Assembly: GCF_014644295.1 (NCBI RefSeq)
Contig: NZ_BMKK01000020.1
Span: forward strand, 1-54,203
From: Emticicia aquatilis
Lineage (GTDB): Bacteria; Bacteroidota; Bacteroidia; Cytophagales; Spirosomataceae
Direction of reading: 5' to 3'
Length of the DNA stretch: 54,203 nucleotides
The position numbers and the translations under genes are program-made. The notes beneath the pieces are model-generated. The model worked only from the letters and a program-made list of their open reading frames with translations. It ran no database searches and was not told where the DNA came from. Below are positions 9,675 to 54,203 of this stretch, piece after piece; position 1 is the first letter of the stretch; each line of letters begins with the position of its first letter.

Positions 9675-12600
9675 TTAAAAGTTCTTCTTAAAAACTCGTA
9701 CTTTTTGACTATTTATCGAACTAATCAACTGATTACCAACCACTTTCAAATCTTTCACATCACCTTTTAGGCCGAGACTTGAATGATACTTAAAATTTCC
9801 TTTTCGGTCATTCAAGAAAATTTGCCCAAAATTGGCATCAATATTTCCTCGCACTCGTCCGTGTGATTGATTTCCTGCCAAAATTAAATCTTTGAATCCA
9901 TCATTGTTTATATCATCGGAAGTAATGGCAAAAACTGGAGCAAATTGGGCTTCAATCGGTAACTTTTTTAGTTCAAATTTGCCATTTTTGTTTTCTAAAT
10001 ACACTGTTTCCAAAATATTAGCTTCTAATTTTTTGGCTTGTTTACCCTTAAATTCAGCCAAAATTTCTTCGGTCGTGGCGGTAGAATATAATTCGTGTGA
10101 AGTATATTTTTTCTTTAGTGCCACCAACTGCTCCGAAATTTCATCTCGACTAAAAATCGGGTAGTTTTTCCCTTGAATGTAATAAGACAAAATCGGGTCA
10201 AGGCGACTGTTATCGTCAAAATCTTCGTAGAGTAAAGTCATCGGTTCTTTTTCTGATGCACGAAGCTGTGAGTTAAGTCCATAGTTACCGACAACAAAAT
10301 CCAAATCGCCATCTTTATCGAAATCATCGGCATAGATTCTTTGCCAAAAACCTTTCATAAGACTCAGATTATCAGCATTTTTCGTAAAAACTCCATTGTT
10401 ATTCTGTAAGCACACAATTCCTGTAAATTCGCCAACAGCAATCAAATCTTGCCAACCGTCTTTGTTGAAATCGACTGCTAAAACATCGGTTAAAAGGCCT
10501 AATTCATTAAAAATTGGGTCTTCAACTTTCACAAATTTACCTTTATCATTGCGATACAATCGGCTTGGATTACTCAGAGGATAATTGAGCGGAATCAACG
10601 AGCCACCAACAAATAAATCAAGGTCGCCGTCGTGGTCAAAATCTATCGTTTCTACGGCACAATCCGAGTACGGAGTATCTTCAAAAGCATCAAAAGTTTT
10701 GGTAAAATTTCCTTTACCGTCATTCAAATATAGTCGATTTTGTAGCACCAAATCATTAGGCAAATATTCGTAACCACCACTTGTTACAAATAAATCCAAA
10801 TCACCATCACCTTCTGCATCAAAGAAAACCGCATCAGTATCGGTACAAAGTTCGTCTTGTTTGAAAGGATTCTCTGCTTTTTTCACAAAGTTTCCTGTAC
10901 TATTTTGAATAAATAACTCGCCAGGTTGACCTTTTCCTCCGCCAATAAAAATATCTTCTAATCCATCATTATTTACATCACCTTTGGCCATTCTTGGGCC
11001 TTGATAAGAATACATTTGTGGCAATAAAACCTGACGATTGAAATCGTTTAGAGGCATTTGCTTATGCACAAAATCAAGTGTATTGGTTTCAACAAAAAGC
11101 GGTTTTTCGGAAGGTAAAATAAATGAAGTCGCATTCGGAGCATAAGCCACTTTCAGCATTTGATTTGACTTAATATTCGTCTGTTTCTGAATCTTGCCAT
11201 CATTCCAAACGATTACTAAACTATCAATTTTTTCGTTTTTACCCAAACCAAAATGGAGTGGAGCCATGATGCTACTTTGATAACCATGCGTAGGCGTAAA
11301 TTGCTGATATTGAGAATTTTGCCCAACAAACAGATAACACTTCGCTCCTATTTTTTTATAAGAATTGAGTTGAATATTGATGTAATTTCCAATCTTTTTC
11401 TCAGTACTAAGATTCTTATAAACCGAAGCAGGTTCGTTGATATTGTTCGTAACAATTTCTAAATCTCCATCATTATCTAAATCGGCATAAACCGCTCCGT
11501 TTGAAATAATTGGCGTTTCAAAACCCCAGTCTTTTTGCTTGTTTGAAAACTGTAAATTATGTTCGTTTCTAAAAATATAATTAGGTGTTTTGGTCGAAGG
11601 CATTTTCTTGATAACATCCATGATATTTACGCCCGCTTGCTGGCCTTCATCGGCATAATACTTCTGAAAATCCATGTTGGTGTAATCTCGTAAATATCCA
11701 TTGGTCACAAACAAATCTTTGTAGCCATCATTATCATAATCGGCCAACAAAACCGACCACGACCAGTCTGTGTTTGAAATTCCTGCCAGTTGTCCGATTT
11801 CCGAAAAAGTTGAATTGTTGCCATTATTGATTTGCAACATATTTCGCATAAAAGATGGATGAATTCCATTTTGTAACATCGACAAATAAGCACCATATTT
11901 ATCAGGGCCAAAAAGCAACTTCTGACGCTTATTATCTTCGGGAAGCATATCGGTTGAAATAATATCTGGCAGTAAATCATTGTTGACATCGCCAATATCA
12001 TTTCCCATCGAAAAATAACTCACATGGTTAGTTCTCGACTTGATTTCATCGCTAAATGTGCCGTTCTGGTTATTTATGTACAAATAATCTTCTTCCAAAT
12101 AATCGTTTGATACATAAATATCCATCCAACCATCGCCATTGACATCAGCCGTATGAACACCCAAACCAAAACCAATTGGGTTTCCTTTGATGCCCGCTTT
12201 TACACTCACATCCGTAAACTTTCCGTTGATATTCTCTAATAATCTGTCGCCAGCCAACGAATCTCGCATGAAATGAATGGCCTCCACATCAAAACGTTTG
12301 AAATCTTTTACGTTATGATTCAGCACATAGGCATCTAAATCACCATCTTTGTCGTAGTCAAAAAAGGCAGTTTGTGTAGTGTAGGTGTTTAGGTCAAGAT
12401 TATATTCGGCAGCTTTTTCTGAAAATGAATTATTTTTATTATTGATGTAAAGTTTATTTTTTCTTAGTTCGGGATGCTCAATATTTGCCGAAACCGACAC
12501 GTAAATATCTTGCCAACCATCGTTATTAATATCCACGACCGTTACGCCAGTTTTCCATTCTCCATTCCATTTGATACCCGATTTTTCGGTAATATCTTCA

Positions 12601-12878
12601 AACTCCAAACCACCTTTATTGATATACAATTTATCTTCTCCCTGATTAGCCGTAAAGTACAAATCAGTCAATCCATCGTTATTAAAGTCGGCGGCAGCTA
12701 CGCCTCCACCATTATAAAAATACTCGTAGTTAAGTACATTATCTTTTTCTGTCTCTTCGATTTTATTGACAAATTTGATATTGGTATCATCGGCATCCAG
12801 TTTTTCAAAAATAGAATCCGAATTACTTTTGCAACCGATAAAAAAGAGCAGAATAAACGATAAATTTATAAATTTCAT
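9675..12878 (-). CDS. FG-GAP/VCBS-repeat lipoprotein with ASPIC/UnbV domain (CRTAC1-like)
   Basis: 1067-aa predicted lipoprotein: the N-terminus SFILLFFIGCKSNSDS has a good lipobox with Cys16. The body carries many FG-GAP/VCBS blades with calcium-loop motifs such as DFNNDGLTDLYF, DINNDGWQDIYV and DYDNDGYKDLFV, arranged as two beta-propeller-like halves. An ASPIC/UnbV-like segment (MAPLHFGLGKNEKIDSLVIV, then WNDGKIQ) lies near residue 540 between them. Bacteroidota encode many such surface proteins, often beside SusC/SusD pairs, but none is present here. The probable role is an outer-membrane or surface-exposed binding protein; the ligand is unknown. It lies 85 bp downstream of ygiQ with a terminator between, so it probably has its own promoter. 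Confidence 0.88.
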   Translation of the reverse strand: MKFINLSFILLFFIGCKSNSDSIFEKLDADDTNIKFVNKIEETEKDNVLNYEYFYNGGGVAAADFNNDGLTDLYFTANQGEDKLYINKGGLEFEDITEKSGIKWNGEWKTGVTVVDINNDGWQDIYVSVSANIEHPELRKNKLYINNKNNSFSEKAAEYNLDLNTYTTQTAFFDYDKDGDLDAYVLNHNVKDFKRFDVEAIHFMRDSLAGDRLLENINGKFTDVSVKAGIKGNPIGFGLGVHTADVNGDGWMDIYVSNDYLEEDYLYINNQNGTFSDEIKSRTNHVSYFSMGNDIGDVNNDLLPDIISTDMLPEDNKRQKLLFGPDKYGAYLSMLQNGIHPSFMRNMLQINNGNNSTFSEIGQLAGISNTDWSWSVLLADYDNDGYKDLFVTNGYLRDYTNMDFQKYYADEGQQAGVNIMDVIKKMPSTKTPNYIFRNEHNLQFSNKQKDWGFETPIISNGAVYADLDNDGDLEIVTNNINEPASVYKNLSTEKKIGNYINIQLNSYKKIGAKCYLFVGQNSQYQQFTPTHGYQSSIMAPLHFGLGKNEKIDSLVIVWNDGKIQKQTNIKSNQMLKVAYAPNATSFILPSEKPLFVETNTLDFVHKQMPLNDFNRQVLLPQMYSYQGPRMAKGDVNNDGLEDIFIGGGKGQPGELFIQNSTGNFVKKAENPFKQDELCTDTDAVFFDAEGDGDLDLFVTSGGYEYLPNDLVLQNRLYLNDGKGNFTKTFDAFEDTPYSDCAVETIDFDHDGDLDLFVGGSLIPLNYPLSNPSRLYRNDKGKFVKVEDPIFNELGLLTDVLAVDFNKDGWQDLIAVGEFTGIVCLQNNNGVFTKNADNLSLMKGFWQRIYADDFDKDGDLDFVVGNYGLNSQLRASEKEPMTLLYEDFDDNSRLDPILSYYIQGKNYPIFSRDEISEQLVALKKKYTSHELYSTATTEEILAEFKGKQAKKLEANILETVYLENKNGKFELKKLPIEAQFAPVFAITSDDINNDGFKDLILAGNQSHGRVRGNIDANFGQIFLNDRKGNFKYHSSLGLKGDVKDLKVVGNQLISSINSQKVRVFKKNF

Positions 12879-15716: not shown

Positions 15717-15730
15717 TTCTGAGTTTTGTA

Positions 15731-15775
15731 AAAAAGCTTAGTCTAATACAGTTTGTATTAGACTAAGCTTTTTTC
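15731..15775 (+). terminator. Strong terminator, 20-bp perfect stem
   Basis: AAAAAGCTTAGTCTAATACA (15731-15750) pairs perfectly with 15754-15773 around a 3-nt loop, and the right arm ends in T6. It separates the glycine-zipper lipoprotein from the STM4015-4011 operon and could work in both directions. Confidence 0.9.
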
Positions 15776-15833: not shown

Positions 15834-15841
15834 TATATTTG
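15834..15841 (+). promoter_or_regulatory. -7 box of the STM4015-4011 operon
   Basis: TATATTTG matches the Bacteroidota -7 consensus TAnnTTTG exactly, 46 bp before the chosen STM4015 start. It lies inside the longest possible reading frame (Met at 15822), which argues for the later start. The -33 element is not clear. Confidence 0.55.
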
Positions 15842-15887: not shown

Positions 15888-16802
15888 ATGGTACACGACA
15901 ACTTAGAAATCTTTAATGGAAAATTTGTTTCTGACTTCATTCCTAATGAGACCCAAGTCGACTTTACTAATCACACTTACCGTTTAAGATTAGATTTTGA
16001 TTCCATTGAAAATGGTTCTACAATTGATGAACTTATTCATTCGTTTGCTCAATTACCCAATATCCATCAGTGCCAAGAGTTGATTATAGGCCAGTGGAGT
16101 TTTGATAGTGGTTCTGAAGGTGTTGTAAACGCTTTAGTTAATTTAAAAGAGGGATTTAAAAATTTAAAAACTCTTTTTATTGGAGATATTACTTATGAAG
16201 AACAAGAAATATCATGGATACAACAAAGTGATTTGAGTCCAATTTTAGCAGCATACCCTAATCTTGAACTACTTCAGATTAGAGGAGGTACAAGTTTGAG
16301 TTTTAGTAATCTGAAACATGATAACCTAAAATCATTAATCATTCAAACTGGAGGACTCCCCCCAAATGTCATTGAAGAAATTAATAATTCTCATTTACCA
16401 AACCTTGAAAAACTTGAACTTTGGCTCGGAGATGAAAACTATGGTTTTGAATCTAAAATAGAAGATTTAGACATAATTATTAATGCTGGAAAATTCCCTA
16501 AATTAACTTACTTAGGTCTTAAAAATAGCTTCCTTCAAGATGAAATAGCTATAAAAATTAGCCAATCTCGAATTTTAGGTCAATTACATACTTTAGATTT
16601 ATCAATGGGGACTTTAACTGATTTAGGAGCAAATGCTTTATTGAGAAATCCTGCAATTAGTAATCTACATTTTTTAAATTTAGACCATCACTACATGTCT
16701 GATGAGATGATGGAACAAATAAAGTCCTTAGGGATACCTGTTTCGATGAATGACAGAGAGGTTGAAGATGATGGTTATCGATATATTGAAGTTAGTGAAT
16801 AA
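15888..16802 (+). CDS. STM4015 family leucine-rich-repeat protein
   Basis: About 304-aa cytosolic protein of the STM4015 family, first gene of the five-gene STM4015-4011 set. It contains LRR-like repeats: NLELLQIRGGTSLSFSNL, HDNLKSLIIQTGGLP, LPNLEKLELWLGDENYG, FPKLTYLGLKNSFL and LHTLDLSMGTLTDLGANALL. The ending DDGYRYIEVSE is characteristic of the family. No signal peptide. The frame stays open back to a Met at 15822, but a -7 box falls within that extension, so Met at 15888 is preferred. Its stop overlaps the next start (TAATG). As the only non-enzyme of the set it is a candidate scaffold, target-recognition subunit or modification substrate; that is inference, and the family has no assigned function that I know of. 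Confidence 0.85.
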   Translation: MVHDNLEIFNGKFVSDFIPNETQVDFTNHTYRLRLDFDSIENGSTIDELIHSFAQLPNIHQCQELIIGQWSFDSGSEGVVNALVNLKEGFKNLKTLFIGDITYEEQEISWIQQSDLSPILAAYPNLELLQIRGGTSLSFSNLKHDNLKSLIIQTGGLPPNVIEEINNSHLPNLEKLELWLGDENYGFESKIEDLDIIINAGKFPKLTYLGLKNSFLQDEIAIKISQSRILGQLHTLDLSMGTLTDLGANALLRNPAISNLHFLNLDHHYMSDEMMEQIKSLGIPVSMNDREVEDDGYRYIEVSE

Positions 16803-17926
16803 TGCATTTTTTAGTTATTGGTAATCCAGAAAACAGACGACTACATTCTTTTATAGTAGAAGTTGATGCACTAAAAGAATGTAGTCATTCGGTTATATCA
16901 TATATTGACCTATTAGATGATAAAGTCAAACTTGACAATTATATTCGGCCCAATACTGTAGTAAAAATTGATTCACCTGGCGAAAACCAGACTGTTAGAA
17001 AAAAGTTAATCGAATATGGAAAGATTAATATCCAACATATAAACAACGCTTTTTTATCTGAATTTGGGAGAATTTGCTATCAAGACGAATGGTATCGAGG
17101 CTTTTTTAGTTTTTTGTTGGATTTAAAAGATAAGTTCTCGCCTTTTAAGTTACATTTTATGAATAGCATTGACTCTATTCTTATCATGTTTGACAAAGTA
17201 GAAACAAAAAAACTGTTAAACCAAAATAAAATCCTTACACCGATTGCCTTAGATAATATCTATAATTATACCGAGTTAAGAAATCAAATGTTTAATAAAA
17301 AAATTCATAATGTTTTTATTAAACCTGCACATAGTTCGTCAGCTTCTGGTGTAATTGCTTTTCGAACTCAAGGTTCATTTGTTAAGGCAATTTCTTCAGT
17401 AGAACTAATTAGTGACCAAGGAGATGTACGCTTTTACAATTCTTTGAAAGTTCGTACCTATACTGACGAAAAATCAATCATTACGCTAATTAATAATTTT
17501 TTATTAGGTAAGGTTAGTCTCGAACAATGGATTCCTAAAGCAAGTTTCAAGGGTTTGTCATTTGATTTTCGAGTGGTAGTTATAAATGGTAAAGCTCGGC
17601 ATATTGTCGCACGAACGAGTAAATCACCCATCACCAATCTACATTTGGGCAATGCCCGTGGAAATCTATCAGAAATTGTTACCCATATTAGTAATGAAAG
17701 GTTTGAGTCGATAAAAGCCGTAGCAGAAAATGTGGCTAAATGTTTTCCTGACTGTCTCTACTTAGGTATTGACGTATTAATTTCGGCAAATTTAAGGCAT
17801 ATAATGGTATTAGAAGTAAATGCTTTTGGAGATTTGCTACCCAACTTAATTGATGATGGCGAAACTGTATATGAAGCTCAAATTAAAGCAAGTATTCAAA
17901 AATGGTCAAAACATGAAACAATATAA
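16802..17926 (+). CDS. STM4014 family ATP-grasp-like protein
   Basis: 374-aa cytosolic protein of the STM4014 family; the N-terminus FLVIGNPENRRLHSFIVEVD is typical. An ATP-grasp-like fold is suggested by the nucleotide-binding strand and loop HNVFIKPAHSSSASGVIAFR, the segment FDFRVVVINGKARHIVAR and the C-terminal metal-binding-like VLEVNAFGDLLPN. ATP-grasp enzymes join a carboxylate to an amine or thiol through an acyl phosphate, so a ligation step is expected; the substrate is unknown. Its ATG overlaps the STM4015 stop by one base, so the two are translationally coupled. Confidence 0.85.
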   Translation: MHFLVIGNPENRRLHSFIVEVDALKECSHSVISYIDLLDDKVKLDNYIRPNTVVKIDSPGENQTVRKKLIEYGKINIQHINNAFLSEFGRICYQDEWYRGFFSFLLDLKDKFSPFKLHFMNSIDSILIMFDKVETKKLLNQNKILTPIALDNIYNYTELRNQMFNKKIHNVFIKPAHSSSASGVIAFRTQGSFVKAISSVELISDQGDVRFYNSLKVRTYTDEKSIITLINNFLLGKVSLEQWIPKASFKGLSFDFRVVVINGKARHIVARTSKSPITNLHLGNARGNLSEIVTHISNERFESIKAVAENVAKCFPDCLYLGIDVLISANLRHIMVLEVNAFGDLLPNLIDDGETVYEAQIKASIQKWSKHETI

Positions 17927-17927
17927 T

Positions 17928-18722
17928 ATGAATGAGGTCGTCGAACAGATGGATATTCTGTTTCTGACCTTAGACACTTTACGATTTGATGTAGCTGATA
18001 AACTCTTTCATACTGACCAAACCCCTAACTTTAAACACTATTTTCCAGAAGGTTGGGAAAAGTGTCATGCTCCTGGAAGTTTTACCTTTGCCTCTCATCA
18101 AGCTTTTTTTGCTGGTTTTTTACCAACACCAGCTTATCCAGGTCGGCATACGAGATTATTTGCAGCAAACTTTGCAGGAAGCGAAACCACATCCTCACAA
18201 ACATTAATTTTTGAAACCCCAGATATAGTTTCAGGCTTTAGGCAAAAAGGTTTCAAAACAGTTTGTATAGGTGGAGTTGGATTTTTCAATAAAAAAACTG
18301 CTTTAGGAAACGTTCTTCCTGCTCTTTTTGAAGAAAGTTATTGGACTGAAAAATATGGTGTAACTGAAAAACTATCAACAACTTATCAATTTGAAAAAGC
18401 AATAGAAATCATACATTCTACACAAAAACAACCATTGTTTCTATTTATCAATGTATCGGCCTTACATCAACCCAATTGGTTTTATGCTGATTCACCTAAT
18501 GAAAATAAAGAAGATACAATTGAAACCCATGAAGCAGCTTTAAAATACGTAGATAGCCAAATGCCTCTACTTCTTTCGGCACTCAAGCTTAAAAGAGATA
18601 CATTTTGTATTATTTGCTCCGACCACGGCACAGCCTATGGAGAAGATGGTTTTTTCGGGCATCGTTTAGGCCATCCAACAGTTTGGGAAGTGCCAATGGC
18701 AACATTTATACTAAAAAAATGA
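17928..18722 (+). CDS. STM4013/SEN3800 family hydrolase (alkaline phosphatase superfamily)
   Basis: About 264-aa cytosolic protein of the STM4013/SEN3800 family, an alkaline-phosphatase/sulfatase-superfamily fold. Family landmarks: DILFLTLDTLRFDVADKLF with a metal-ligand Asp, HAPGSFTFASHQAFFAGFLP with the probable Thr/Ser nucleophile region, SETTSSQTLIFETPDIVSGF, and the C-terminal metal site CIICSDHGTAYGEDGFFGH. It lacks the CxPSR motif, so it is not a formylglycine sulfatase; a phosphoryl or similar ester is the likelier substrate. Met at 17928 sits one base after the STM4014 stop and matches the family N-terminus; Met at 17913 is possible, and the frame is open to 17850 within STM4014. Confidence 0.85.
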   Translation: MNEVVEQMDILFLTLDTLRFDVADKLFHTDQTPNFKHYFPEGWEKCHAPGSFTFASHQAFFAGFLPTPAYPGRHTRLFAANFAGSETTSSQTLIFETPDIVSGFRQKGFKTVCIGGVGFFNKKTALGNVLPALFEESYWTEKYGVTEKLSTTYQFEKAIEIIHSTQKQPLFLFINVSALHQPNWFYADSPNENKEDTIETHEAALKYVDSQMPLLLSALKLKRDTFCIICSDHGTAYGEDGFFGHRLGHPTVWEVPMATFILKK

Positions 18723-18723
18723 T

Positions 18724-20046
18724 ATGAATATACAAAATACTTTATTTAACAATCCATTTGAAGGGTATGCTTACTCTTATCCACATAAACACGCTTATCG
18801 CCCATTTGAAACAGCAATACCCTTAGAATCTTTGTGGAAGGAAGAGTCAAAAGATGGCTTATTCTTATACTTACACATTCCATTTTGTGAAATGCGTTGT
18901 GGATTTTGTAATTTATTTACAGTGGCAAATCCCAAAGGGAATCTTGAAGAACAGTACATGAAAGCCCTTCAAACCGAAGCAAATGTTGTAAGTAAGGCTA
19001 TCGGAGAAAGCCAATTCTCTCGAATTGCTGTTGGTGGTGGAACACCAACATTTTTAAATTTGCCATTATTAGAATCTTTATTTTCAATAATCCAAGAAAC
19101 AATGAAGGTGGATACCTCAAAAACACCATTTTCTTTTGAGATGTCTCCTAAAACTGTTTCCCTCGAAAAACTCCATTTTCTATATCAAAATGGAGTAGAT
19201 AGAGTGAGTATTGGTATTCAAAGTTTTATAGAAAATGAACAAAAAACGCTGGGAAGACCACAAAAAAACAAAGAGGTTTTCGATGCTCTTTCTATGATGC
19301 GTTCGGTTAATTTTAAAACTCTTAATATTGATTTAATATATGGTGCTTTTGGGCAAACAGCTAATTCTTGGTTATTTTCTTTAGAATCAGCATTAATGTA
19401 TGACCCAGAGGAAATTTTTATTTATCCTCTTTATACACGCCCACTTACAGGAATTATGTCGATGAATAAAAGTGAGACAGATAATCGTTTTAATTTGTAT
19501 TTGCTGGCCAAAGAATTCCTTCTCAGTCAAAGTTACGAACAAATATCAATGAGATTGTTCCGTAAAAAGGCTATTTCTCAAACAATGAATGGTTTACAGT
19601 ATTGTTGTCAAGAAGATGGAATGGTTGGGTTAGGGTCTGGAGCTCGCTCCTATACAAAAAGAGTTCACTATTCCTCAGAATATGCAGTTGGAAGTAAAAA
19701 TGTTAAAAATATTATTCAAAATTATATTTCCAAATCAACCTCTGATTTTGCCAGTATAGATTATGGTATCAGACTAAACGATAGCGAATTAAAAAGGCGT
19801 TATCTAATAAAATCCATTTTACAAGTATCTGGTTTAGATATAAATCAATATAATACTTTTTTCAACTCAGACCTCATTAAAGACCATCCAAAACTACTTT
19901 CATTATTAGACTCAGGTTTGGGTTTTATAGAAAATGAGACTCTATTTAAACTAACTACAGATGGGATTGACTGGTCTGATGCAATTGGTCCTTGGTTGTA
20001 TTCAGATGAAATAAAAACAAAAATGGAAGGATTTAATTTGAAATAA
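18724..20046 (+). CDS. STM4012 family radical SAM protein
   Basis: 440-aa radical SAM enzyme related to HemN-type proteins. The family N-terminus is EGYAYSYPHKHAYRPFE. The cluster motif CxxxCxxC (Cys55, Cys59, Cys62) lies in HIPFCEMRCGFCNLFTVANP, followed by the SAM-binding AVGGGTPTFL and the VDRVSIGIQSF strand. The C-terminal part (residues ~340-440) resembles the winged region of HemN relatives. One base separates its ATG from the STM4013 stop. Despite HemN likeness, the operon context argues against coproporphyrinogen oxidation. The reaction is unknown. Confidence 0.88.
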   Translation: MNIQNTLFNNPFEGYAYSYPHKHAYRPFETAIPLESLWKEESKDGLFLYLHIPFCEMRCGFCNLFTVANPKGNLEEQYMKALQTEANVVSKAIGESQFSRIAVGGGTPTFLNLPLLESLFSIIQETMKVDTSKTPFSFEMSPKTVSLEKLHFLYQNGVDRVSIGIQSFIENEQKTLGRPQKNKEVFDALSMMRSVNFKTLNIDLIYGAFGQTANSWLFSLESALMYDPEEIFIYPLYTRPLTGIMSMNKSETDNRFNLYLLAKEFLLSQSYEQISMRLFRKKAISQTMNGLQYCCQEDGMVGLGSGARSYTKRVHYSSEYAVGSKNVKNIIQNYISKSTSDFASIDYGIRLNDSELKRRYLIKSILQVSGLDINQYNTFFNSDLIKDHPKLLSLLDSGLGFIENETLFKLTTDGIDWSDAIGPWLYSDEIKTKMEGFNLK

Positions 20047-20091
20047 TTTGCCGTACTAAAAAAGTAATTTTCAACCAATAGTGTCTAATTT

Positions 20092-20943
20092 ATGATTTGG
20101 TCAATTTTATATCGAGGTCCACTTTCTGGCTGTAACTACAGTTGTACATACTGCCCTTTTGCAAAGAAAAAAGATAGTAAAAAGGTACTTGAAATGGACT
20201 CCCAACAATTGCACAAATTTGTAAATTGGGTATCTATTCAATCAGATAAAACAATTAATATTCTCTTTACTCCTTGGGGTGAAGGCTTAATTAGAAAGCA
20301 TTATCAAGATGCAATCATACAATTAAGTCAAATGCCAAATGTTGGAAAGGTGTCTATACAAACCAATCTTTCGTGTAAACTGAAATGGCTTGAAAGTAGT
20401 AATAAAGAAAAAGTAGCATTATGGACAACTTATCATCCTACCCAGACTACTTTAACACAGTTTTTGAACAAATGTCAACAATTAGACATACTAAAGATAA
20501 AATATAGTGTTGGTGTTGTTGGTTTCCGAGAAGCCTTACCAGAAATTGAAATGATGCGTCAAAAACTTTCTAAAAGCACCTACTTATGGATAAATGCACT
20601 AAAAAAGAACCCTGACTACTACTCAACTGATGATATTAGACGCATGTCAGTAGTTGACCCTCATATCCACTATAACCTTCAGAACCATGAAAGTAAAGGG
20701 TTTTATTGTCGAGCAGGTCATACTACTTTCAGTGTTAATGGGGATGGAGATGTTAGTCGTTGTCATTTCATAAAAGAAATTATTGGCAATATCTATGATG
20801 TTGATTTTGAGCAAAGACTTTTTCCAAAACTTTGTATAAACGATACTTGTGGTTGCCATATTGGCTATGTACACTTAGAAAAACTAAATATAGAAAAAGA
20901 CTTTGGGGATGGAATATTAGAACGAATAGCTACTAACTTTTGA
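20092..20943 (+). CDS. STM4011 family radical SAM protein with SPASM-like C-terminus
   Basis: 283-aa radical SAM enzyme, last gene of the five-gene set. The N-terminus ILYRGPLSGCNYSCTYCPFA carries CxxxCxxC (Cys14, Cys18, Cys21). The C-terminus is Cys-rich in the SPASM manner: GFYCRAGHTTFSVNGDGDVS, RCHFIKEIIGN, then LCINDTCGCHIGYVH, so auxiliary Fe-S clusters are likely. SPASM enzymes commonly modify peptides or proteins, which hints at a macromolecular substrate. It lies 45 bp after STM4012, the largest gap in the operon. No terminator is evident before the next lipoprotein gene. Confidence 0.88.
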   Translation: MIWSILYRGPLSGCNYSCTYCPFAKKKDSKKVLEMDSQQLHKFVNWVSIQSDKTINILFTPWGEGLIRKHYQDAIIQLSQMPNVGKVSIQTNLSCKLKWLESSNKEKVALWTTYHPTQTTLTQFLNKCQQLDILKIKYSVGVVGFREALPEIEMMRQKLSKSTYLWINALKKNPDYYSTDDIRRMSVVDPHIHYNLQNHESKGFYCRAGHTTFSVNGDGDVSRCHFIKEIIGNIYDVDFEQRLFPKLCINDTCGCHIGYVHLEKLNIEKDFGDGILERIATNF

Positions 20944-21671: not shown

Positions 21672-22283
21672 ATGCCTAAAATCGACCACAATACTAAAGA
21701 AAAGATACTTATTGCTGCTGAAAAAGTATTTCATCGAAGCGGATTTAAAGGAACTCGGACAACTGCTATTGCTGAAGAAGCGGGAATTAGTCGCACCATG
21801 TTGCACTATTATTACAGCACCAAAGAAGACCTTTTTCAAGAAGTTTTGAACAAAACTCTTGGTGCTGTAATACCGCATTTAAGTCGCCTTTTGGGGCAGG
21901 AAATGGATTTAGAGCATTGGATATGCCATATTATTGACACAATGTGCGGTTTGTTTGAAGAAAAACCAACTTTTCCGAATTTCGTTGCCAATATTATTAA
22001 CGAGTCGCCCGATGTGGTCATGATGCTCGCCACTAATGTTCAAGATGATATTCCGTCAAAATTAGATGCACTATTGGCAGTAGAAAAACAAAAAGGCACA
22101 GTTATCGAAAACATCACTGGTGAAGATTTGATATTGAATATTTATTCGCTCTGTGCAGTTCCGTATCTCGGTATTCCTTACATCAAAGCAAAAGAAAACC
22201 GAAATGATGAGCAAATGCTTGAGTTTTTGAAACAACGACGCGAGAAAATCAAAGTATTTGTACTTCATGGTATCAGAAAATAG
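21672..22283 (+). CDS. TetR family transcriptional regulator
   Basis: 203-aa repressor. An N-terminal TetR helix-turn-helix spans residues about 8-55: KILIAAEKVFHRSGFKGTRT, then AIAEEAGISRTMLHYYYSTK EDLF. The C-terminal part is the variable ligand-binding domain. It precedes a PhlG-type hydrolase gene, and the same 20-bp operator lies before both genes, so it likely represses itself and the hydrolase/flavoprotein pair. In Pseudomonas the TetR-type PhlH represses phlG, a parallel arrangement. A terminator follows, so the downstream genes are transcribed from their own operator-promoter. Confidence 0.9.
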   Translation: MPKIDHNTKEKILIAAEKVFHRSGFKGTRTTAIAEEAGISRTMLHYYYSTKEDLFQEVLNKTLGAVIPHLSRLLGQEMDLEHWICHIIDTMCGLFEEKPTFPNFVANIINESPDVVMMLATNVQDDIPSKLDALLAVEKQKGTVIENITGEDLILNIYSLCAVPYLGIPYIKAKENRNDEQMLEFLKQRREKIKVFVLHGIRK

Positions 22284-22305
22284 ACATTTCTAAATACTTT
22301 TTCAT

Positions 22306-22332
22306 TATGACTGGATTCAGTCATATTTTTTT
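22306..22332 (+). terminator. Rho-independent terminator after tetR
   Basis: TATGACTG-GATT-CAGTCATA (22306-22325) is a perfect 8-bp hairpin followed by a T-run. It separates tetR from the hydrolase gene and precedes the second operator by 9 bp. Confidence 0.8.
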
Positions 22333-22340
22333 AAATTATA

Positions 22341-22360
22341 TTAAACAATTTTGTCGAACA
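22341..22360 (+). promoter_or_regulatory. TetR operator, copy 2
   Basis: Exact second copy of the 20-bp sequence before tetR, ending 11 nt before the hydrolase ATG, at nearly the same distance as copy 1. Placement after a terminator supports an independent, TetR-controlled promoter for the two enzyme genes. Confidence 0.78.
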
Positions 22361-22371
22361 TATTTGTTTAT

Positions 22372-23172
22372 ATGAAAAATACTAAGAAATACATCGGCTA
22401 TCAATCGACAGATTTTGCATTGCCGTATGCCAAATTCTATGATGAAATCATAAGGCCAATCCCTACACTGGTTGAAAAAGCTATTAAAAAATCATCAAAA
22501 AACGGGCTTCAACTCGAAAATGTGCGTGATATGCACAACAAAGGTTATCTTGACTTAGAGAACGGTTATCTACTAAACAACGACGGCTCAATACATGTGG
22601 CGGTGCTTACGCCAATGCCAAATGTAAGCCCCGAAATATGGGATTGGTGGTTTGGCTGGCATAGCTGCGAAGACAGTCGCTACAAATTGTGGCACCCGAA
22701 AGCCCATCAATCGGTGGTTTGGGCAGATGGACGTGATGAAGTAGCATACGTTAATCGTACTTCTATTATCGAAGAATACATTGGCAAAAAACTCGAAAAA
22801 GCTGCTATTCAATTCAAATCTCCACTCGAATTCGGGTTTTCTGATTCACAGATTGCTGATAAAGCCAAAGTAGTTTATGTCTGTGCCAGAGTTGGGTATG
22901 TGGACTATCCACTTGACTTTGGCTGGTTGGTTCATCAAATCCGAAAAACTGACGGTGGTGCCGAAATGCGTTCGAGGTTTTGGATGGGTGGCAAGTTTAT
23001 AGCCATTCGTTCCGATAATTTTCTTGGAAAGATAGTCTCAAAAGTTCTACAAAAAATAGTCAAACTTCCCGAACAACAAGCCAAAGATTTGATGACTCAT
23101 TGCTCGGAAGAAATGAATCATTTGGCGGCTATTCTACCCGATTTGTACAATGAATTTAACCAAAACAACTAA
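22372..23172 (+). CDS. DAPG hydrolase (PhlG) family protein
   Basis: About 266-aa cytosolic hydrolase resembling PhlG, the zinc enzyme that cleaves a C-C bond in 2,4-diacetylphloroglucinol to release acetate. Landmarks: VAVLTPMPNVSPEIWDWWFG, WHSCEDSRYKLWHPKAH (candidate metal-ligand and substrate-pocket residues) and a C-terminal HxxxE in LMTHCSEEMNHLA, matching the spacing of the PhlG zinc ligands. The ATG at 22372 is chosen; the frame is open from a TTG at 22351, but that lies inside the operator. It lies 12 bp before the flavoprotein gene. True substrate may be another acylated phenol or beta-diketone. Confidence 0.82.
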   Translation: MKNTKKYIGYQSTDFALPYAKFYDEIIRPIPTLVEKAIKKSSKNGLQLENVRDMHNKGYLDLENGYLLNNDGSIHVAVLTPMPNVSPEIWDWWFGWHSCEDSRYKLWHPKAHQSVVWADGRDEVAYVNRTSIIEEYIGKKLEKAAIQFKSPLEFGFSDSQIADKAKVVYVCARVGYVDYPLDFGWLVHQIRKTDGGAEMRSRFWMGGKFIAIRSDNFLGKIVSKVLQKIVKLPEQQAKDLMTHCSEEMNHLAAILPDLYNEFNQNN

Positions 23173-23184
23173 TGCTTTAAAATT

Positions 23185-24558
23185 ATGGAAAACCTAAAAA
23201 TTTCTGGAGATATAATCATACGAGGCGAAAAAGGCTTCGATGAGTTAGTAATGGGTACACTTTTTAATAAAATTGACCCAAAACAACGCCCTTCAATGGT
23301 GGTGATTCCGAATGACATTCACGATATAATCAATATAGTTCGCTACGCAAAATCGGTTGGAAAAAGAATTACCATCAGTTCGGGCGGACATAGTTTCAGT
23401 GCGAATTTCATCAGAGAAGGTGCGGTTTTGATTCTGATGAAAAACTTCAATCAATACTCCGTCAATAAAGATGCTATGACCGCCGAGGCTGGCCCAGGTG
23501 TAGGTGGAAGTGTATTAATGAAAGCACTTTACAAAGAGAATTTGTTCTTTCCTGCGGGACATTGCAAGGGTGTTTGCATTGGTGGTTATCTGCTTCAAGG
23601 CGGCTACGGTTGGAATGGTCGTAAATTGGGTATTGCTTGTCAGAGTGTTTTGGCGATGGACATCATCACGGCCAATGGCGAGTTGGTTCATGCCAGTCCG
23701 ACCCAAAATGCTGATTTGTTTTGGGCGGCTCGTGGTTCGGGGCCGGGGTTCTTTGGCATTGTCGTTAAATTCTATCTCAAAATCTACCCTTTGCCTAAAT
23801 ACCGAGCTATTATGGCTCATGATTTCAGCATCAAACACCTCGATGATGTCTATCGTTGGGCGTATGAAGCAGGCTCTTCGATTCCGAAAGCTATTGAATT
23901 TCAGATGATTATGATTCAGAAAATGCTCAATATCTTAGGGCCGGGCATTGAGGCTTTTGCACCGATTTTTGCCGATACCGAAGACGAATTTGAAGAAGCG
24001 AAGACTTTCATGCACAACAGTCCGATAAAGAAAAAGGCCATAATTGCCACACCAGCCTTCAACCCTGGTATTGAGCTGCTCTACAAAGGCACGATGTCTC
24101 ATTACCCCGAAGACCACCATTGGGGCGTAGATAATATGTGGACACACGCTTCGATTGATGATTTGTTGCCGCATATCAAGCAAATTGCCGAGACATTACC
24201 GCCTGCACCCTCGCATTTTTTGTGGTTGAATTGGCACCCAGGTAACCTGAAAACTGACATGGCTTACAGCAAAGAAGATAATATTTATATGGCTTTGTAC
24301 AGTTGCTGGAAAGATGCTAAAGACACCGAAAAATACAATAATTGGGCGTTTGACACGATGCGGAAAATGGAGCATCTGGCGGTAGGAATTCAGTTAGCCG
24401 ATGAAGGTTTGCACCGCCGTATCGCTGCATTTATGAGTGATGAAAACCTACAAAAAGTACAAGAAATTAGAGCCAAAAGAGACCCCGATGGGCTTTTTTA
24501 TGAGTGGCACAGCAAGCCTATTTTCAATGAGCGAATGAAAGAATTAGTGAATGATTGA
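23185..24558 (+). CDS. BBE-type FAD-linked oxidoreductase
   Basis: 457-aa flavoprotein of the PCMH/FAD_binding_4 superfamily with a BBE-like C-terminus. ITISSGGHSFSANFIREG contains the His that can hold FAD through an 8-alpha bond, and FPAGHCKGVCIGGYLLQGGY contains Cys residues at the position of the second, 6-S-cysteinyl link, so FAD may be bicovalently bound. ARGSGPGFFGIVVKFYLKIY is the second FAD-binding region; the C-terminal RDPDGLFYEWHSKP replaces the usual DPxxxF tail. No signal peptide. Paired with the PhlG-type gene under the same TetR operator, it probably oxidises a related phenolic or its product; the direct substrate is unknown. Confidence 0.85.
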   Translation: MENLKISGDIIIRGEKGFDELVMGTLFNKIDPKQRPSMVVIPNDIHDIINIVRYAKSVGKRITISSGGHSFSANFIREGAVLILMKNFNQYSVNKDAMTAEAGPGVGGSVLMKALYKENLFFPAGHCKGVCIGGYLLQGGYGWNGRKLGIACQSVLAMDIITANGELVHASPTQNADLFWAARGSGPGFFGIVVKFYLKIYPLPKYRAIMAHDFSIKHLDDVYRWAYEAGSSIPKAIEFQMIMIQKMLNILGPGIEAFAPIFADTEDEFEEAKTFMHNSPIKKKAIIATPAFNPGIELLYKGTMSHYPEDHHWGVDNMWTHASIDDLLPHIKQIAETLPPAPSHFLWLNWHPGNLKTDMAYSKEDNIYMALYSCWKDAKDTEKYNNWAFDTMRKMEHLAVGIQLADEGLHRRIAAFMSDENLQKVQEIRAKRDPDGLFYEWHSKPIFNERMKELVND

Positions 24559-52100: not shown

Positions 52101-54203
52101 CGTAAATACCTCAGCAGTATGTGAAGGGACTAACGTTACTTTGTCAGCTACTTGTGTATTAGGCACAGTAACTTGGTATAATTCATCTATTGGAGGAACA
52201 GCAATCGGAACAGGGAGTGCATTCAGTTATAATGCACCTGTGGGAAATAATCAAGTCTTTTATGCTTCATGTAAAACTACTTGTGAGAGTGGCTTGACGG
52301 CATCTTTAAATTCACTGACAGTAAAAGCCAAACCCAATGTGCCAACAATTACACCACCAACTAATACGGTAGTTTGTTCGCCAAATACGTTGACTTTAAC
52401 AGCCAATTGTACCACTGGAACTATTCTTTGGTCGAATAACTCAACCAGCACAAGTTTGACAATTTCGGCAGTCGGGACATATTCCATTTCAGCGAAATGT
52501 GTTTTGAACGGCTGTGAATCAGATGCCAGTTCGGCAACGAATTTGGAAATCAAAGCCAAACCCAATGTGCCAACAATTACACCACCAACTAATACGGTAG
52601 TTTGTTCGCCAAATTCGCTGACTTTAACGACCAATTGTACCACTGGAACTGTCCTTTGGTCGAATAATTCAACAAGCACGAGTTTGACAATTTCGACAGT
52701 CGGAACACATTCCATTTCAGCGAAATGTGTTTTGAACGGCTGTGAATCAGATGCCAGTTCGGCAACGAATTTGGAAATCAAAGCCAAACCCAATGTGCCA
52801 ACCATCACACCACCGAGTCAATTAGTGGTTTGTTCTCCAACAAGTTTAACTCTAACAGCTAACTGCACAACAGGCACAGTTTTGTGGTCGAATAATTCGA
52901 CTACTTCAAGTTTGTTTTTAAGTGCAGTCGGAACATACTCAATAACAGCCAAATGTGTATTGAATGGCTGTGAATCAGACCCAAGTTCTACAACGAATTT
53001 GGAAATCAAAGCCAAACCAAGTGTGCCGACCATTACGCCACCGACCAACACGGTAGTCTGTTCACCAAATACGTTAACCTTAACGGCAACTTGTGCAACA
53101 GGCACAGTATTATGGTCGGATAATTCGACTACTTCAAGTTTGTTTTTAAGTGCAGTCGGGACATATTCAATTTCAGCCAAATGTATCTTAAACGGTTGTG
53201 AATCAGATGCAAGTACAACAACGAGTTTAGAAATCAAAGCTAAACCAACCGTGCCGACTATTACACCACCAACTAATACGGTAGTTTGCTCGCCAAATAC
53301 GCTAACTTTGACAGCCAATTGCTCTACTGGAACTATTCTTTGGTCGAATAATTCAACCAGCACAAGTTTGACAATTTCGGCAGTCGGGACATATTCCATC
53401 TCAGCTAAATGTATTCTGAACGGCTGCGAATCTAACCCAAGTTCGGCTACGAGTTTAGAAATCAAAGATAAACCAACAGTGCCGACTATTACACCACCAA
53501 CTAATACAGTAGTCTGCTCGCCAAATACGCTAACTTTGACAGCCAATTGCTCTACTGGAACTATTCTTTGGTCGAATAATTCAACAAGCACAAGTTTGAC
53601 AATTTCGGCAGTCGGGACGTATTCAATTTCAGCTAAATGTGTTCTGAACGGCTGTGAATCTGACCTAAGTTCGGCTACGAGTTTAGAAATCAAAGATAAA
53701 CCAACAGTGCCGACTATTACACCACCAACTAATACAGTAGTCTGCTCGCCAAATACGCTGACTTTAACAGCCAATTGTACCACTGGAACTATTCTTTGGT
53801 CGAATAATTCAACCAGCACAAGTTTGACAATTTCGGCAGTCGGGACGTATTCAATTTCAGCTAAATGTGTTCTGAACGGCTGCGAATCTAACCCAAGTTC
53901 GGCTACCAGTTTAGAAATCAAAGATAAACCAACAGTGCCGACTGTTACACCACCAACTAATATGGTAGTTTGTTCGCCAAATTCGCTGACTTTAACAGCC
54001 AATTGTACTACTGGAACTATTCTTTGGTCGAATAATTCAACAAGCACAAGTTTGACGCTTTCGGCAGTCGGGACATATTCAATTTCAGCTAAATGTGTTC
54101 TGAACGGCTGTGAATCTGACCCAAGTTCGGCTACCAGTTTAGAAATCAAAGATAAACCAACAGTGCCGACTATTACACCACCAACTAATACGGTAGTTTG
54201 CTC
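49138..54203 (+). CDS. Giant secreted protein with SprB-type and 76-aa Cys-containing repeats (3' end beyond window)
   Basis: At least 1688 residues; the frame is open from 49138 to the last base and the stop is outside the window. Signal peptide RKILSFTILLIFLSPFIYAQ. Residues ~20-425 resemble a beta-propeller (FALEIDANGNYHVALINY, LDSNNKPHVAYRIKDG). An Ig-like domain follows (YQWQVDIGSGFTDISNTG), then about four SprB-type repeats (NVSCIGGTNGTASVNAATGG, TVTDNNGCVATQTFNVTQP), two PKD-like segments, one module like those of the 3363-aa protein (VCEGTNVTLSATCVLGTVTW), and then tandem 76-residue repeats. In-frame Mets at 49105 and 49075 are alternative starts. SprB repeats are known from the Flavobacterium gliding adhesin, so a T9SS-exported surface adhesin is plausible; the sorting domain would lie outside the window. 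Confidence 0.85.
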   Translation, partial: MRKILSFTILLIFLSPFIYAQTFTNGLVATGYGSALIYADSDIGPDGKFYVLRNYGTVVNSSNPKTTFFDIRRWDSATSTWTVVGSFDQTDIPNQYIGSSSMYERFALEIDANGNYHVALINYTSTDNGVTIYGNVTYAKSSDGNNWTFTVLENVNTNVYNNYTYFEVQLELDSNNKPHVAYRIKDGTSANFIDRRQYIRYQYYNGTSWTMQTALTAPVSSTANVDINSFAFALDKNNKAHIAASLETNGGVDASLVYLNNVSGTWSSPTTIIAGSTGNNASSSMDIVVDSNVKAHILNRDASFAIKYATNESGSWSVSNFGTGNSIWQSLAINSSNNIFFIYNGQSSGTNTGDVRYAYKAGGASTWDTGSIMAGNNRTATVTMVAELNDSNVAMTWFDHFAGSGSPSYSPDNPRQLQYATASFGVSCISPTVSTNPSNRTICNGNNTTFSVTASNATAYQWQVDIGSGFTDISNTGVYSNATTSTLTITGATSAMNGYVYRCVVINGTSTCSTNSNTATLTVSTIILSQLNKTNVSCIGGTNGTASVNAATGGSAPYTYNWTPGNPTGDGTTSVTGLSAGTWTCTVTDNNGCVATQTFNVTQPALAVSGTTSVTNVSCNGGLNGAINLTPTGGTGSYTYNWGGGVTTEDRTGLAAGNYSVIITDVNGCTGTVTATITQPSAITISPSQVNVSCNGGTNGSASVSVTGGIVGYTYSWSPGGGSTSSITGLSAGTYTCTVTDGNGCTKAQNFTINQPAALSLTTNIQNVTCLGGANGAIDLTVSGGSQPYTYAWTGGVTTQDLSNLSSGNYSVTVTDINLCTATTSVTLTQGATTSVNITGTENLSCLKSSVTRTVSTGISYSWTGPNSYTASTATATINTPGTYMVTMTEAGGCSATATTMVSQDITPPVVNITGTDNITCAQQTVTRSVASGQSYVWTGPNGYTSSNAVAQINISGTYTVTVTGENGCTTTASTVVTQELSSPSNVNVNTSAVCEGTNVTLSATCVLGTVTWYNSSIGGTAIGTGSAFSYNAPVGNNQVFYASCKTTCESGLTASLNSLTVKAKPNVPTITPPTNTVVCSPNTLTLTANCTTGTILWSNNSTSTSLTISAVGTYSISAKCVLNGCESDASSATNLEIKAKPNVPTITPPTNTVVCSPNSLTLTTNCTTGTVLWSNNSTSTSLTISTVGTHSISAKCVLNGCESDASSATNLEIKAKPNVPTITPPSQLVVCSPTSLTLTANCTTGTVLWSNNSTTSSLFLSAVGTYSITAKCVLNGCESDPSSTTNLEIKAKPSVPTITPPTNTVVCSPNTLTLTATCATGTVLWSDNSTTSSLFLSAVGTYSISAKCILNGCESDASTTTSLEIKAKPTVPTITPPTNTVVCSPNTLTLTANCSTGTILWSNNSTSTSLTISAVGTYSISAKCILNGCESNPSSATSLEIKDKPTVPTITPPTNTVVCSPNTLTLTANCSTGTILWSNNSTSTSLTISAVGTYSISAKCVLNGCESDLSSATSLEIKDKPTVPTITPPTNTVVCSPNTLTLTANCTTGTILWSNNSTSTSLTISAVGTYSISAKCVLNGCESNPSSATSLEIKDKPTVPTVTPPTNMVVCSPNSLTLTANCTTGTILWSNNSTSTSLTLSAVGTYSISAKCVLNGCESDPSSATSLEIKDKPTVPTITPPTNTVVC
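50716..51620 (+). repeat. SprB-type repeat array
   Basis: Four successive ~70-residue units with the pattern NVSCxGGxNGxxxxxxxGG..YTYxW......GLSAGxYxxTVTDxNGC, positions near 50740, 50980, 51210 and 51430. Boundaries are approximate. Confidence 0.7.
52339..54203 (+). repeat. Perfectly phased 228-bp tandem repeats (76 aa), at least eight copies
   Basis: The codon starting VPTITPP occurs at 52339, 52567, 52795, 53023, 53251, 53479, 53707, 53935 and 54163: every step is exactly 228 bp. Each unit carries CSPNTLTLTANCTTGTILWS, SAVGTYSISAKCVLNGCES and ends near LEIKAKP, with four Cys. Copies differ by scattered, mostly silent changes, and none has an indel. The array continues past the window edge, so total copy number is unknown. 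Confidence 0.92.

Follow-up and report, generated by a model that had tools for sequence, protein, structure and literature searches.

A conserved five-gene operon in Emticicia aquatilis that may modify the C-terminal glutamate of a leucine-rich repeat protein

We analysed a stretch of 54,203 nucleotides from Emticicia aquatilis (contig NZ_BMKK01000020.1, positions 1 to 54,203 of the forward strand, hereafter the window), in which five consecutive genes at 15888-20943 (+) belong to families named only after Salmonella locus numbers, STM4015 to STM4011. The list of open reading frames (ORFs) and the codon positions give five ORFs, all starting with ATG; in gene order the first two overlap by 1 bp and the next junctions leave 1 bp, 1 bp and 45 bp, exactly as the initial annotation of this DNA had described. 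The operon has a G+C content of 0.329, lower than that of the window (0.371). The annotation had also assigned the genes, one by one and in order, to STM4015, STM4014, STM4013, STM4012 and STM4011, and had named profile searches as the check; when these were run with profile hidden Markov models, each of the five proteins scored above the NCBIfam cut-off of its family. The genes are listed below with two segments of STM4015.

15888-16802, + strand: STM4015-family leucine-rich repeat (LRR) protein, 304 aa, isoelectric point (pI) 4.6 (NF038076, 330.7 bits, cut-off 275)
16701-16778, + strand: STM4015 codons 272-297, acidic linker of variable length (1.61 bits/column over 283-296)
16779-16799, + strand: STM4015 codons 298-304, tail RYIEVSE, proposed modification site (homologue ends, 3.02 bits/column)
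16802-17926, + strand: STM4014-family ATP-grasp ligase, 374 aa, pI 8.8 (NF038074, 352.2 bits, cut-off 175)
17928-18722, + strand: STM4013-family alkaline-phosphatase-superfamily enzyme (NF038075, 386.5 bits, cut-off 250; the query was one codon too long at its upstream end)
18724-20046, + strand: STM4012-family HemN-like radical S-adenosylmethionine (SAM) enzyme (NF006067, 555.5 bits, cut-off 380)
20092-20943, + strand: STM4011-family radical SAM enzyme with a twitch-type auxiliary cluster domain (NF038073, 388.6 bits, cut-off 200)

Co-conservation, the other check that had been set, was assessed in 80 named genome loci found through STM4013. They are the best 80 of at least 563 confirmed relatives, ranked by likeness to the window STM4013, a choice that under-samples the far end of the family. 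All five genes occurred together in 72 of the 80 loci, 46 of them with the exact order 4015-4014-4013-4012-4011 in single copies; the remaining complete loci mostly carried extra 4015 copies and four had a rearranged order. Six of the eight incomplete loci (L021, L030, L034, L038, L045 and L061) are cut by contig ends. Locus L078 lacks STM4014 only and L039 holds STM4013 alone of the five; in both genomes STM4014 lies on another contig, adjoining an STM4015 with the tail RYVQISE (L078 genome) or RYVAVAE (L039 genome). Adding plasmid loci and one further genome brought the count to 80 complete loci among 91. Relatives occur in Bacteroidota, Actinomycetota, Cyanobacteriota, Chloroflexota, Myxococcota, Pseudomonadota, Verrucomicrobiota, Planctomycetota, Deinococcota and Bacillota, the phyla of the named loci being assigned from organism names. 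The five genes are thus co-conserved as had been anticipated; the claim that the system is complete holds for the five-gene core of the window, but many relatives carry extra genes that were not seen at this locus.

In STM4015 an LRR body is followed by a poorly conserved acidic linker and then by a fixed C-terminal tail, with conservation per column of 2.53, 1.61 and 3.02 bits, respectively. Across 129 sequences the linker measures 22-37 residues, and the segment aligned to window residues 285-297 carries a mean net charge of -5.1 and is negative in 118 of them. The tail has the consensus R-[YF]-x-[AS]-V-x-E-COOH, RYVAVGE (18), RYVAVSE (10) and RYTAVSE (6) being the commonest versions among the 129. 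Glutamate is the last residue in 125 of the 128 homologues with a stop codon from other loci, which span about ten phyla. These end counts exclude L001-L003 (duplicates of the window or of genome G088), and no STM4015 match in L007-L097 lay at or below the 60-bit line; the starts of the relatives were chosen by script and may be off, whereas the ends are exact stops. In the partner families terminal Glu was found in 3/82 STM4011, 1/90 STM4013, 0/86 STM4014 and 0/84 STM4012 proteins (4/342 when pooled). The STM4015 sequences are related to each other, and a Fisher value for their Glu ends is no true probability; terminal Glu was present in all 23 representatives sharing less than 45% mutual identity. 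STM4015 proteins are very acidic (median pI 4.5) and STM4014 proteins mostly basic (median pI 8.7). The AlphaFold2 model of the window STM4015 has a predicted local distance difference test score (pLDDT) of 95.9, and its best match in the PDB is 2RA8 (template modelling score, TM, 0.82), an STM4015-family LRR protein from Bacteroides fragilis (Q64V53) that aligns up to the last position of the profile. The aligned part closes with SYPMITE at residue 354 of 362, and the last 8 residues of 2RA8 are presumably a purification tag. Its N terminus is longer than that of the window protein and, judging from longer relatives, may contain a WGR domain.

STM4015 is also the component that multiplies. 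Two to four copies were found in 23 of the 72 complete named loci, none of which has two intact copies of an enzyme; the sole extra enzyme copy is an STM4014 fragment in L056. The 14 kb read around a stand-alone STM4015 with the tail LYVSVAE contain no core enzyme, and the cluster lies elsewhere in that genome. Among the 128 STM4015 proteins, 75 ORFs reach at least 325 aa, and the 52 of these that were scanned contained WGR domains (8), HEAT repeats (5) or a BRCT domain (1). BRCT (residues 240-309) lies inside the LRR region in L046:5116-6315, and in the other fused proteins WGR or HEAT stands at the N terminus. This speaks for the LRR-tail part being a modular unit, carried by proteins that have their own functions.

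The predicted model of STM4014 (pLDDT 94.5) was compared with the PDB, where ArgX or LysX structures, several of them solved with LysW, took ranks 1-5 and 7, followed by PsnB (rank 6), RimK with RpsF (17) and MdnC (22). By sequence the best PDB match was again LysX (E 5e-4), and the neighbouring NCBIfam families are MptN, CofF and RimK. Nearly all family members keep a TNLHxG stretch and an E-x-N pair, the former resembling what we take to be the RimK-family motif. RimK, which shares the ATP-grasp fold, has the C-terminal Glu of a protein, ribosomal protein S6, as its acceptor. STM4014 differs from it in acceptor and gene context and scores only 23.9 bits on TIGR00768, for which the cut-off is 143.4 bits.

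Conserved catalytic residues are also seen among the remaining enzymes. In STM4013, Asp16, Thr53, Asp232 and His233 were each retained in 92/92 sequences, with Thr53 at the nucleophile position; we take this pattern to resemble that of Thr-nucleophile phosphotransferases such as LtaS and EptA. Its PDB relatives include nucleotide pyrophosphatases/phosphodiesterases and sulfatases. Formylglycine sulfatases have at the nucleophile position a Cys or Ser that becomes formylglycine, and a sulfatase role was ruled out, given Thr in all 92 sequences. STM4012 is related to HemN (1olt, E 7e-55) and to the methyltransferase NocN (9p2u, E 1e-33); a HemW or HemN role was rejected, the protein scoring below both cut-offs (151.7/205.4 for TIGR00539, 150.9/324.95 for TIGR00538). 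STM4011 has a SkfB-like twitch region, and SkfB (6efn) is its PDB relative. The first three Cys (CX3CX2C) and CX9-15GX4C were present in 84/84 sequences, and of five C-terminal Cys the last three were kept in 83/84 with one gap. This arrangement fits the Cys pattern of SPASM/twitch radical SAM enzymes; the Pfam SPASM model scored 18.0 bits, under its gathering score of 21.5.

Taken together, these findings fit a set of four enzymes with a protein substrate better than five parts of one pathway. The initial annotation had seen in the operon a complete small biosynthetic or modification pathway, which is plausible in its general outline; it had however treated the LRR protein as one more component, and the evidence favours a substrate. 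What singles out STM4015 as the likely substrate is a C-terminal Glu tail that hardly varies, together with the presence of several copies in many clusters. We consider it somewhat probable, by a little more than an even chance, that the operon encodes a dedicated protein-modification system in which STM4015 is the substrate or scaffold, with a reactive C-terminal Glu, and the other proteins are enzymes. In such a system, STM4015 would be a ribosomally made non-enzyme whose acidic LRR body can be recognised by the enzymes and is followed by a variable acidic linker and a fixed tail, the reaction site being the free C-terminal Glu of R-[YF]-x-[AS]-V-x-E. STM4014, as a LysX/ArgX/RimK-like ligase, would use ATP to activate a carboxylate of this Glu and join to it an amine-bearing building block. 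The HemN-like STM4012 and the twitch-type STM4011 would then alter the loaded group or the tail, and STM4013 would add or remove a phosphoryl group through its Thr nucleophile, perhaps assisted in some relatives by a haloacid dehalogenase (HAD)-type phosphatase. The modification of the tail, the action of STM4014 on Glu, the attached group and the order of the steps are all inferred parts of this model. We favour as end product a modified LRR protein rather than a released small molecule, because we noticed no peptidase that accompanies the genes across phyla and because the LRR-tail unit is found fused to WGR, HEAT or BRCT. A wider version of this proposal, which we regard as possible but rather doubtful, is that of a post-translational system in about ten phyla whereby LRR proteins, whether or not they are fused to WGR, HEAT or BRCT, receive one common prosthetic group. 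The ATP-grasp ligase, the two radical SAM enzymes and the Thr-nucleophile phosphatase-fold enzyme would build this group on the tail, and diverse LRR proteins would be armed with the same chemical head.

The closest parallel is found in the LysW/ArgW carriers of Thermus and archaea with their ligases LysX/ArgX, which likewise combine a C-terminal Glu on an acidic protein, a dedicated ATP-grasp ligase and opposite charges. In Thermus, according to an excerpt of PMC10433800, LysX couples alpha-aminoadipate, through its amino group, to the gamma-carboxyl of the Glu at the C terminus of LysW, and an excerpt of PMC9303977 reports such electrostatics for amino-group carrier proteins (AmCPs). In the operon, however, the carrier would be an LRR protein, and its partners are radical SAM and alkaline-phosphatase-fold enzymes instead of the LysZ/Y/J/K set. 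Pearlins (3-thiaglutamate, 3-thiahomoleucine) offer a second parallel, with a C-terminally modified carrier and a radical SAM step in the case of 3-thiahomoleucine (excerpt of PMC9303977); they rely on a tRNA-dependent PEARL (peptide aminoacyl-tRNA ligase) loader and a peptide carrier, where here an ATP-grasp ligase and an LRR protein are found. Graspetide systems (PsnB, MdnC) share an ATP-grasp ligase acting on a ribosomal precursor, but theirs is a short leader-core precursor, whereas STM4015 is a folded LRR protein of about 300 aa that ends in Glu.

Several observations weigh against STM4015 being the substrate of such a system. No STM4015 among the 129 ends in EDWGE, no zinc-binding Cys is conserved (no column holds Cys in more than 49/129) and the motif G[ST]WG[RK] occurs in 0/87 STM4014, which therefore lack a LysX-type GSWGR. 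Because the pair fails these LysW-defining motifs, we suggest that STM4015 and STM4014 may work like the LysW system without being one. The ATP-grasp resemblance is a fold-level match, with 11-16% identity and TM values of 0.51-0.58 by query length among the 50 matches listed; high ranks are also taken by inositol-phosphate kinases and D-Ala ligases. The average STM4013 or STM4012 protein is acidic and the average STM4011 near neutral, so that charge complementarity with STM4015 concerns mainly STM4014. Three of the 128 STM4015 proteins (L031:2195, L040:2687 and L056:11573) lack the terminal Glu. Clustering of the neighbouring genes and Pfam searches on ten cluster representatives, with no search dedicated to a release peptidase, did reveal one peptidase near the clusters, an M23-family protein in 10 loci (nine Streptomyces and L070), its representative lying on the opposite strand. 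Finally, the tail is ordered in the AlphaFold2 model (pLDDT 95 over residues 291-300 and 87 over 301-304), which shows no free arm. A flexible arm is thus unsupported by this model, and the tail would therefore have to detach or be met in place.

The same ordered tail would suit a structural cap that closes the LRR solenoid, with STM4015 as an adaptor holding the enzymes and an unrelated small molecule as their true substrate; in 2RA8, which has 351 of its 362 residues in the structure library, the tail may be ordered too. We give this explanation little credence, as it accounts neither for Glu falling almost always exactly at the last position, nor for the extra STM4015 gene copies, nor for a ligase that is most similar to enzymes acting on a C-terminal Glu. 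The copies would instead be expected from a ribosomally synthesized and post-translationally modified peptide (RiPP), with several precursors per enzyme set. The LRR body would then be an unusual leader and the tail a core peptide, cleaved off as a modified heptapeptide acting as a signal or antimicrobial. The enzymes would fit such a scheme: STM4011 is related to SkfB and PapB, STM4012 has NocN as a relative and the STM4014 ATP-grasp is close to the graspetide ligases PsnB and MdnC. RiPP cores are however expected to diversify, and this one is nearly constant over about ten phyla. Moreover, the Pfam matches of the enzymes include no domain of the RiPP recognition element (RRE) type, and neither a protease nor an exporter common to several phyla was noticed next to the cluster, save for an ABC ATPase type in 14 loci. 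All this makes a RiPP improbable.

A small-molecule pathway deserves somewhat closer attention, although we still judge it unlikely. STM4015 would in that case be the LRR counterpart of the LysW/AmCP or pearlin carriers; STM4014 would load the tail Glu with an amino acid or amine, the other enzymes would transform this load and a peptidase would free the small product. The combination of ligase fold and C-terminal Glu is as in LysX-LysW, the putative carrier is acidic and the ligase mostly basic, and pearlins provide an example of a carrier peptide that is loaded at its C terminus and undergoes radical SAM chemistry (excerpt of PMC9303977). Some Streptomyces loci also lie near a class-III aminotransferase (7), a GDSL hydrolase (12) or an M23 peptidase (9), but these neighbours look like the shared chromosome neighbourhood of one genus. 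Naive clustering of the neighbouring genes, with no dedicated search, revealed no peptidase, kinase or aminotransferase common to several phyla beside the cluster. Such a pathway would have no need for several carriers per cluster, and the WGR, HEAT or BRCT fusions suggest that the STM4015 protein itself acts.

If the LRR tail is indeed the substrate, a widespread orphan operon becomes experimentally testable, and the carrier-protein chemistry of LysW and pearlins extends to leucine-rich repeat proteins and to radical SAM enzymes whose reaction has no assignment. RYxAVxE at the extreme C terminus would then serve as a sequence tag for further targets. Full-text searches of open-licence papers in PubMed Central listed no entry dealing with the five-gene system and gave no function for it, in line with the earlier remark that no assigned function was known to the annotator. 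Excerpts of two sources list STM4013.S in a table of sigma-54 binding sites and STM4015 in a table of a selection scan.

The operon is rare among the relatives of its host. Of 296 Bacteroidota genomes, only G000 and G088 had STM4011 above the cut-off, and the same two contained full-length STM4015, the G088 protein scoring 273.6 bits, just under the cut-off of 275; an initial scan of genome contigs with a single-sequence query had given no match. STM4013 exceeded its cut-off in the window's genome alone among 28 near relatives, 10 others of the same genus included. In the STM4012 tree the window copy joins Niastella (support 0.994) and, less firmly, other Bacteroidota (0.74). The operon was probably gained horizontally from within Bacteroidota. 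In relative G301, the YgiQ-lipoprotein neighbours are present and the operon is absent from the 18 kb read; a search for synteny around the insertion in the genus found this pair alone in G301 and nothing in G298.

Accessory genes are common in other loci. A DUF6745 protein and a partner of about 100 aa (GDVLI...GEVTGHSHR...REYxPE), as in L007:2725-4395 and L010:9997-11324, adjoin the five-gene cluster in 52 of the 80 complete loci. A HAD-type phosphatase occurs in 12 of these 80 (13/91), directly upstream of STM4013 in 13/13; both counts include the few loci used for model building. Salmonella has a different HAD, of the Cof type, overlapping STM4011. In Deinococcus the DUF6745 protein seems by eye to have an LRR-like N terminus. 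No DUF6745 match was obtained in the window's genome, nor in control genomes, which leaves its absence unproven. Pfam searches on ten representatives of the neighbour clusters returned M23 peptidase, GDSL hydrolase, class-III aminotransferase, TetR, ABC ATPase and tyrosine phosphatase, and four had no match. Except for the ABC ATPase type and one M23 (L070), these neighbour types were confined to Streptomyces loci; in this clustering the two largest clusters mix DUF6745 genes with overlapping frames.

STM4013 relatives also occur apart from the operon. Those of Streptomyces albidoflavus (L012) and Kitasatospora (L016) were set aside as another system; on the S. albidoflavus plasmid (L012:5866-9315) the neighbours encode a NUDIX hydrolase, a thymidylate-kinase-like protein and a radical SAM protein with weak likeness to MoaA. 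Ten Agrobacterium plasmids carry a relative at about 25% identity, and in L014, the single one read, the other four genes were not found near it. STM4013 was further matched by two short phage records and by one Salmonella Infantis record filed under phages. Phage carriage of the system was discarded, the relative on viral contig L158 having none of the other four genes within the 14.7 kb read. An anti-phage defence role was likewise dismissed, as PADLOC gave no specific match for the five proteins: it returned zero matches for STM4015, STM4014 and STM4013 and weak ones for the two radical SAM proteins alone (best E 1.6e-6, 25.2 bits), including viperin-like and PDC-M51A.

Two signals lie upstream of the operon:

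~15730-15775, + strand: terminator-like palindrome separating the operon from the lipoprotein gene upstream of it (folds as RNA at -27 kcal/mol, z -7.3 over 200 shuffles)
15834-15841, + strand: TATATTTG, a TAnnTTTG box matching the Bacteroidota -7 consensus

The strong terminator described in front of the operon is borne out by the folding of the palindrome, but not by a consensus terminator scan, which did not list it among its matches. The exact -7 box, matching what we take to be the Bacteroidota consensus, is present as described; TAnnTTTG is however common in the AT-rich window. It is weak evidence, because its 88 matches compare with 76.6 expected and 10 of 100 shuffles reached 88. The box upstream of STM4015 is thus not above chance and adds little.

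Just downstream of the operon, at 21672-24558, a TetR regulator, a protein with a PhlG-type 2,4-diacetylphloroglucinol hydrolase domain (Pfam, 205.7 bits) and an FAD-binding oxidoreductase stand in a row. Farther upstream, a lipoprotein-like ORF of 1067 aa at 9675-12878 (-) reads by eye as an FG-GAP/ASPIC-type repeat protein. At its end, at 52324-54200, the contig repeats a 228-bp unit about 8.2 times in tandem, with 87% matches; this length is a multiple of three, and the array may encode 76-residue repeats of a long protein.

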